From Pirellulales bacterium (GTDB lineage: Bacteria > Planctomycetota > Planctomycetia > Pirellulales > DATAWG01): DNA of 64,000 nucleotides. Below, one piece after another: positions 24,706 to 26,980 of the stretch; position 1 is the stretch's first letter; every line of letters starts with the position of its first letter. Made by a program: the position numbers and the translations under genes. The stretch spans positions 1 through 64,000 of the forward strand of contig DASZFO010000353.1 in the NCBI GenBank assembly GCA_035939775.1, given 5' to 3'. The notes under the pieces were generated by a model. The model was given only the letters and a program-made list of their open reading frames with translations. It was not told the origin of the DNA and made no database searches.

Positions 24706-24776
24706 TACGCGCCACTATAGAACGGCCGGTTGATAACCGACAATACCGAACGGCCTGAGGTGACAACATTGATGTC

Positions 24777-24805
24777 GGGTGCCACTGCTGGCTTGTCCAG
24801 CAGTG
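24777..24805 (+). repeat. REP hairpin, left member of pair around RAYT remnant
   Basis: GGGTGC followed by a perfect 9-base stem CACTGCTGG / CCAGCAGTG with a CTTGT loop. An inverted copy is at 25169-25197 and a second pair at 26791-26819 and 26946-26974. Head GGGTGC plus hairpin is the typical layout of REP sequences mobilised by RAYT transposases. Confidence 0.85.
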
Positions 24806-24866
24806 CCGTCAAACGCCCTTGGCTTGCACGTTGAACAACCAACAAATCCATATTCCCAATTGACGA

Positions 24867-25112
24867 TCAAATGTCGGCGTTCGCCAGAAACTCAGCCGGC
24901 AACGGATCAAGTCTGGGCAATTTCGGATCGGAAATCTCGGCCGAACATTGATCGTGGCGAGCACCCAACCATCGCCAGTCGACGGCTAGGACGCAAAGTA
25001 CATCGTTCGTGAGCAATGGCAGCCGCTTGTAGCAGGAGAAGGTCAATTCGTGACAATCGCTCGGATTGTCGTAGTCTCGCACGGTTTTTCGATGATCCTT
25101 CGGTAGCTGCAT
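24867..25112 (-). pseudogene. REP-associated tyrosine transposase (RAYT) remnant
   Basis: An 81-codon open frame. Its first 40 codons (KDHRKTVRDYDNPSDCHELT followed by FSCYKRLPLLTND) match the N terminus of IS200-like RAYT transposases. The end (DPKLPRLDPLPAEFL) resembles their C terminus. The central part, with the metal-binding HUH histidine motif (usually xPEHVHLL) and the catalytic tyrosine, is missing, so an internal deletion has left a short in-frame relic. It lies inside a pair of inverted REP hairpins (24777-24805 and 25169-25197), the natural setting of such genes. The protein cannot be an active transposase; whether it is expressed is unknown. Confidence 0.72.
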
Positions 25113-25168
25113 AAAGACCCTTTGGATGGATTTGGGAAGACATCATGCAAGCCTTCGTTCAAGTGCTT

Positions 25169-25197
25169 CACTGCTGGATAAGCCAGCAGTGGCACCC
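25169..25197 (-). repeat. REP hairpin, right member of pair around RAYT remnant
   Basis: CACTGCTGG, loop ATAAG, CCAGCAGTG, then GCACCC: the inverted counterpart of 24777-24805. The two copies face each other over about 360 bases. Confidence 0.85.
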
Positions 25198-25227
25198 GCG
25201 CACCACGGGTCGCTCACTAATTCCGGC

Positions 25228-26101: not shown

Positions 26102-26764
26102 TCATGCAGTCTGTTTGTCGTTTGCCGTCAACAACTCGTCGGCGCGCTCGGCCACTTGTTTGCGGGCGTCTGGCAAGACTTGTTGAAACTCGATCGGCAG
26201 CGGCTGCAGGCCGACTCGATCCATGACCTGATTCAAGCGAAACAGTAGTTTGCCATCCTCGGAATAGTCCCACAAGAACCGCTCGCGACAAAAAAGAGAG
26301 ATGAAATACCCAAGCCGGTCGGTGGGTCGCGGCGAAATGCGGTTCACGACTTGCTCGACCACGGCCGGCTCGACCGACGCCATCGCTCGATAATATCGAT
26401 TCAGTCGAACGGGATCGCGGTGAATAAGCGTGTCGTCCAGCAGCAACTCGACGAGAATATGCCCTAGAAAACTAGGACGCAGGCTGTCGTCGAGGGCCAA
26501 GGCGTCACGCACGGCGGCGGTAAACCGCCAGCAGAGTTCGCCAAAGGCCCGGGTTTCGTGAAACCAAGCGTCATCCCGATGATGCCGCACGATTCCGCGC
26601 GCCACCGCGGCCATGCGCGGATCGGAGTCCTCCATGAGCGGCGCGGCGCGCTGCGACCGCGCCCGCACCTTCCGATCCACCACCGACAGCCAATCGGGCA
26701 CCGCCGTGCCGGCGAGGAAGTAGGGATCGTCAACGTGATCGCGGCCGTGAGCGAAATAGTTCAT
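26102..26764 (-). CDS. Conserved protein, AcpH-like helical
   Basis: About 220 residues from ATG 26764 (MNYFAHGRDHVDDPYFLAG). The start, the phrase TAVPDWLSVVDRKVRAR and the histidine-rich VARGIVRHHRDDAWFHET and LGHILVELLLDDTLIHRD recall the ACP phosphodiesterase (AcpH) family with an HD-type metal site, but similarity is loose. The rest is helical and charged. The open frame upstream runs through two REP hairpins and is spurious. Likely co-transcribed with the epimerase downstream. Enzymatic activity is a guess. Confidence 0.6.
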   Translation of the reverse strand: MNYFAHGRDHVDDPYFLAGTAVPDWLSVVDRKVRARSQRAAPLMEDSDPRMAAVARGIVRHHRDDAWFHETRAFGELCWRFTAAVRDALALDDSLRPSFLGHILVELLLDDTLIHRDPVRLNRYYRAMASVEPAVVEQVVNRISPRPTDRLGYFISLFCRERFLWDYSEDGKLLFRLNQVMDRVGLQPLPIEFQQVLPDARKQVAERADELLTANDKQTA

Positions 26765-26790
26765 AGAACGGACGGTGGACCGCGGCGATC

Positions 26791-26819
26791 GGGTGCCACT
26801 GCCGGCTTGCCCAGCAGTG
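26791..26819 (+). repeat. REP hairpin (left of REPIN)
   Basis: GGGTGC, CACTGCCGG, loop CTTGC, CCAGCAGTG; the stem has one changed position relative to 24777-24805. Paired with an inverted copy at 26946-26974, forming a REP doublet of about 185 bases in the gap between the AcpH-like gene and lptD. Confidence 0.82.
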
Positions 26820-26945
26820 ACACACGTTGTCGAGGGCTTGATCGAGGAAGCTCCGTCAATTCCAACGTTGGAACGATGCTGAGTACGACAACTCCCTTGC
26901 TTGAGTTTGTTGGAATTCGAGACTGCAAGCAAGACCCAGTGAGTC

Positions 26946-26974
26946 AGCACTGCTGGACGAGCCAGCAATGGCAC
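26946..26974 (-). repeat. REP hairpin (right of REPIN)
   Basis: CACTGCTGG, loop ACGAG, CCAGCAATG, GCACCC. Inverted partner of 26791-26819. It ends 6 bases before the lptD stop codon. Confidence 0.82.
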
Positions 26975-26980
26975 CCGAAG

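Follow-up and report, generated by a model that had tools for sequence, protein, structure and literature searches.

An inverted REP pair encloses the probable relic of a RAYT gene in a Pirellulales genome

An 81-codon open frame enclosed by two REP hairpins raises the question of whether a RAYT (REP-associated tyrosine transposase) unit is decaying at this site or whether a short protein has been retained after a deletion, the two alternatives offered by the original prediction. The frame lies in a stretch of 64,000 nucleotides from a Pirellulales bacterium (henceforth the window, i.e. the whole stretch of DNA analysed). The features of the locus, and a second REP pair close to it, are as follows.

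24776..25198, no strand: entire unit including both REPs, 423 bp, flanked by scpB and a sugar-isomerase-like gene
24776..24805, plus strand: REP on the 3' side of the relic gene, foot CGGGTGC followed by CACTGCTGG-cttgt-CCAGCAGTG
24867..25112, minus strand: RAYT relic, 81 codons, open, both ends aligning to RAYTs
25169..25198, minus strand: REP on the 5' side of the relic gene, inverted, with a single loop change (cttat vs cttgt) from the commonest form
26790..26977, no strand: another inverted pair of REPs, of the same family, hairpins at 26797-26819 and 26948-26970 with a 128-nt spacer, an ordinary REPIN

Both hairpins predicted to face each other around the frame are present, as parts of the arms of a 30-nt inverted repeat (24776-24805 / 25169-25198) that are 97% complementary. 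Each arm contains a perfect hairpin with a 9-bp stem (CACTGCTGG, a 5-nt loop, CCAGCAGTG), and the hairpins CACTGCTGGcttgtCCAGCAGTG (24783-24805) and CACTGCTGGataagCCAGCAGTG (25169-25191) form the inner parts of the arms. The copy at 24776..24805 has exactly the sequence that is most frequent among the REPs of the genome. Searching the window with the hairpin pattern (up to 3 mismatches) gave 4 matches against 0.02 expected from shuffles, and the own genome holds about 20 exact copies of the CACTGCTGG REP against none for a reversed control pattern. The gene is bounded, as in a REPtron, by inverted REPs of which further copies exist in the genome, and, as in a REPIN, two REPs in inverted orientation form a hairpin: as single-stranded DNA, the ends of the 423-nt unit pair over 30 bp and the whole is 7 sd more stable than shuffles.

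Residues 1-38 of the relic correspond to a RAYT N-terminus (HELTFSCYKRLPLLTND) and residues 39-81 to a RAYT C-terminus (LCVLAVDWRW...LPAEFL). The only other relative found by searching the own genome was on contig C83, where relic residues 7-43 match the N-terminal part (59%, E=1.4e-10) and residues 38-77 the C-terminal part (53%, E=1.1e-6) of a single 242-residue open frame. Both ends also align to 46 RAYTs, following the family to LLTNDV and, after one clean gap, resuming at LC..AVDWRW and continuing to LPAEFL. About 120 residues are absent between relic residues 38 and 39, where the joint TNDV|LC is in frame; the breakpoint is placed approximately, since identity to the nearest full-length relative reaches only about 55-60% at the ends. 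These C83 matches and the alignment with its one gap bear out the claim of RAYT-like ends joined by an in-frame deletion of the catalytic middle. The HMM search suggested as a check had a divided outcome: full-length relatives match NF047646 (E=1.5e-20) and Y1_Tnp (E=1.2e-7), and the 81 residues themselves match no Pfam or NCBIfam profile, because the catalytic core that those models describe is the part deleted. The HUH, WQ and tyrosine motifs, which are those given for RAYT enzymes in PMC6006769, all fall within the missing segment, and judged by its sequence the relic is RAYT-derived and not a working RAYT.

On a tree of the two-end columns, the relic pairs with the C83 gene (support 91/88).

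L004:2305-2898 (contig C83): C83 RAYT, 197 residues from its ATG, the closest relative of the relic on the two-end tree

This gene scores below the curated cut-off of NF047646, the model for REP-associated tyrosine transposases, albeit at E=1.5e-20, and gives a weak match to Y1_Tnp. It carries EHVHLL (HUH), FWQEG (WQ) and YIHENPV (tyrosine motif) and, unlike the relic, is full length, with HVH, WQ and YIHENP in place. Its REPs are of another type (GGGTGGCACTGGCC..., foot GTGG), whereas those of the relic are of the CACTGCTGG type with foot GTGC, so that the two closest RAYT relatives in this genome differ in both REP type and foot, a possible instance of REP specificity changing within one genome. 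A search with NF047646 found six RAYT-like genes in the own genome, none of them flanked by CACTGCTGG REPs. Another RAYT-like gene there (G000:C89:40607-41008, L060) has an internal TGA and, on its upstream side, a palindrome with 22-bp arms (AACTCCAACTGTTGGAGTT core).

Most CACTGCTGG REPs of the own genome occur as inverted pairs with spacers of 26-128 nt, i.e. as ordinary REPINs, and the pair around the relic, with 363 nt, has the longest spacer among them. By eye and by DNA search, the inner spacers of these REPINs share no RAYT sequence, and a DNA search for a second copy of the 423-bp unit in the same genome gave REP-length matches only. The relic is the sole RAYT sequence tied to the CACTGCTGG REP family in the assembly (384 contigs, 96% complete), from which an intact cognate RAYT could be missing. 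No intact RAYT bearing this REP is present there, and the other CACTGCTGG REPs are therefore orphaned in the assembly. The prediction's suggested search for a full-length RAYT with the same REP type thus came up empty in the own genome and succeeded in others (see below). The hairpins of the REPIN at 26790-26977, 1.6 kb from the relic, are slightly decayed. The listed start of the minus-strand gene at 26102-26974 falls within a REP, where GTGCCACTGCTGG reads M-P-L-L; the true start probably lies further in, and gene calls can acquire spurious N-termini (MPLLA...) from REPs of the CACTGCTGG type.

RAYT matches were found in 32 of 98 relatives of the order, and most of the intact RAYTs that could be inspected sit between two inverted hairpins with outer foot GGGTGC. 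The stems around them include CACTGG, CACTGCTGG and CATGCCCACG; six of those inspected (L021, L022, L023, L025, L028 and L042) are full-length RAYTs with the CACTGCTGG stem. G014 and G047 are examples of genomes with an intact RAYT of the CACTGCTGG type. At the relic and in most RAYT-flanking repeats inspected in the order, the foot adjoining the stem is GTGC. The GTAG REP superfamily has GT[AG]G at the 5' foot of the palindrome, as the C83 type does with GTGG, and the relic repeats are not assigned to it because of their GTGC. Three RAYT matches lie within about 7 kb at G024:C1:858856-866058, one of them short (a 133-residue frame) and located between GGGTGCCATGCCCACG-type hairpins. Another genome, G301, holds 126 exact CACTGCTGG REPs and dozens of CACTGGCTG-type REP matches at E<1e-5.

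The neighbours of the unit are scpB (PF04079) and a xylose-isomerase-like TIM-barrel gene (PF01261), and the unit takes up 423 of the 522 nt between them. In two relatives (G014 and G010) both genes are adjacent, with about 66 and 44 nt and neither REPs nor such hairpins between them, which shows that this gene order exists without the unit and does not date the insertion. A member of the same family, G001, was rejected as an empty site, since no scpB was detected next to the isomerase-like gene there; this genome has CACTGCTGG-type REPs and no RAYT match.

Five further genomes of the order contain RAYTs that lie between REPs and have lost their central part, with different breakpoints in each. 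The query consisted of the two relic ends only, so the search favours such copies and yields no rate.

G384, C1:76601-76786 (L078): deleted RAYT between REPs, in frame, about 65 residues open, junction different from that of the relic
G162: deleted RAYT with CACTGCTGG REPs, as at the relic; deletion, with stops
G036: deleted RAYT with a frameshift
G094: deleted RAYT with a frameshift
G301, C57:3258-3577, C57:6310-6631 and C321:2202-2660 (L079, L080): deleted RAYT units, RAYT ends with inverted REPs

The G301 units comprise two 322-bp copies on C57 and one 459-bp copy on C321, all with REPs of the CACTGGCTG type. The deletion in the C321 copy is the smaller one; both C57 copies have the same two deletions relative to it and are 88% identical. 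No similarity was seen between the 400-nt flanks of the two, nor between these and the flanks of the C321 copy, and the similarity among the copies ends at GGGTGCC...GGCACCC. On the simplest reading of this comparison, the deletions came first and the shortened unit, ending in its REPs, was then copied to a second site; gutted RAYT units can apparently move. A deleted unit at several sites, as in MITEs, is thus seen in G301, while the unit of the window is a single copy in its own genome.

We consider it very probable that a single in-frame deletion gutted the RAYT/REP unit of the window, and that what remains is a dead relic. This explanation builds on the homology of the ends, the missing core, the bounding REPs, the lack of an intact cognate RAYT in the assembly and the unit-free gene order in relatives. 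In the ancestral unit the RAYT gene would have been complete and flanked on either side by an inverted REP, as is usual for RAYTs of the order. A single internal deletion, which we infer to have occurred in place, would have taken about 120 codons in frame, from after the TND motif to before LC..DWRW, removing the HUH and WQ motifs together with the region of the catalytic tyrosine and sparing both gene ends and both REPs. The remnant could not cut DNA; its product would be without function, and it would be by chance that the relic is still without a stop. The remnant is most likely dead.

A retained small protein, e.g. a REP-binding regulator or a RAYT inhibitor, would fit a frame that is still open with its strongly conserved N-terminal HELTFSCYKRLPLLTND segment intact, and the G384 copy is a second shortened RAYT open in frame. 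Set against this, the relic junction is absent, its own genome excepted, from 98 relatives, 397 genomes of the order and 392 of the phylum (overlapping sets), and a GTDB contig scan with the 81 residues, including the junction-adjacent peptide, returned ordinary RAYTs only, matched at the ends alone. Deletion breakpoints vary among genomes, and 2 of about 8 deleted copies are open in frame, near the chance value of one in three. The nearest relatives being too diverged for dN/dS, we used a leave-one-out count of losses at columns conserved to at least 95%: the relic has lost 3 of 15 (H13D, S49L, S50G), and intact RAYTs of the subfamily at most 2 each (n=31). S49 and S50 are invariant in the aligned RAYTs and appear, by sequence, to match the conserved serine pair described in the C-terminal extension of RAYTs (PMC6006769). 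At 0.62 (81 codons being a small sample), GC3 of the relic lies below the 0.70-0.79 of the C83 RAYT and both neighbouring genes, and structure prediction for the relic chain alone, weak evidence as it used a single sequence and no alignment, gave a mean pLDDT of 45. Together, the absence of the junction, the residue losses, GC3 and the prediction favour a relic that has not yet acquired a stop. Of the two alternatives in the original prediction, the decaying RAYT/REP unit is accordingly preferred, in view of the unique junction, the loss of two invariant residues and the independent deletions elsewhere; a short protein kept after deletion is very improbable, with its junction in no other genome searched and the invariant serines lost.

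Intergenic inverted hairpins can also be terminators, and with no profile match in the 81 residues one might take the frame for an unrelated one that resembles a RAYT by chance. The own-genome RAYT matches (E=1e-10 and 1e-6), the presence of the same hairpins around intact RAYTs and the 20 exact REP copies against none for the reversed control refute this reading, to which we give practically no credence. A live, non-autonomous MITE-like element, in which the deleted gene is cargo and the REPs are recognised in trans by a RAYT, would share its origin with the preferred explanation and differ in that the unit is not dead and can move, or has moved, as a block. Both REPs of the window unit are intact, and G301 offers REP-bounded 322-bp copies with the same deletions at two sites with unrelated flanks, and a third copy elsewhere. 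On the other side, the unit of the window stands as a single copy, with REP-length matches only elsewhere in its genome, and no intact cognate RAYT was found there; we regard a live element as unlikely, though considerably less so than a retained protein.

RAYTs are usually described as single-copy genes that are incapable of self-mobilisation and serve REPINs, whose origin is open (PMC3116915), a question on which the MITE-like behaviour of the G301 units bears. If REPINs originate from RAYT units by internal deletion, the expected intermediates are gutted units that retain both REPs, and such units are found independently in several planctomycete genomes and have been duplicated in one of them; the question thereby becomes testable by comparing strains within one species. 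More tentatively, and still on the doubtful side, whole REP-bounded RAYT units, and not REPINs alone, might be mobile in planctomycetes, with RAYT-deleted ones spreading and further shortening leading to REPINs, in which case the copies in the window and in G301 would be stages of one process.

Among known systems, the unit resembles the REPtron (PMC3733652; PMC6006769) in its gene ends, in the inverted REP on each side and in the dispersal of these REPs in the genome, and departs from it in the deleted catalytic core and in a stem-adjacent foot that is GTGC and not GT[AG]G. With the REPIN of Bertels and Rainey (PMC3116915) it shares a single long hairpin formed by the pairing of two inverted REPs, and other REPs of the same type form ordinary pairs in the genome with spacers of 26-128 nt; its own 363-nt spacer, however, is RAYT-derived and not a short unique sequence. 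As in a MITE derived from an internally deleted autonomous transposon, there is an internal deletion and both termini are kept, but the window copy is single, and multiplication after deletion is seen in G301 only. The unit of the window may thus be placed between REPtron and REPIN, as a possible intermediate.
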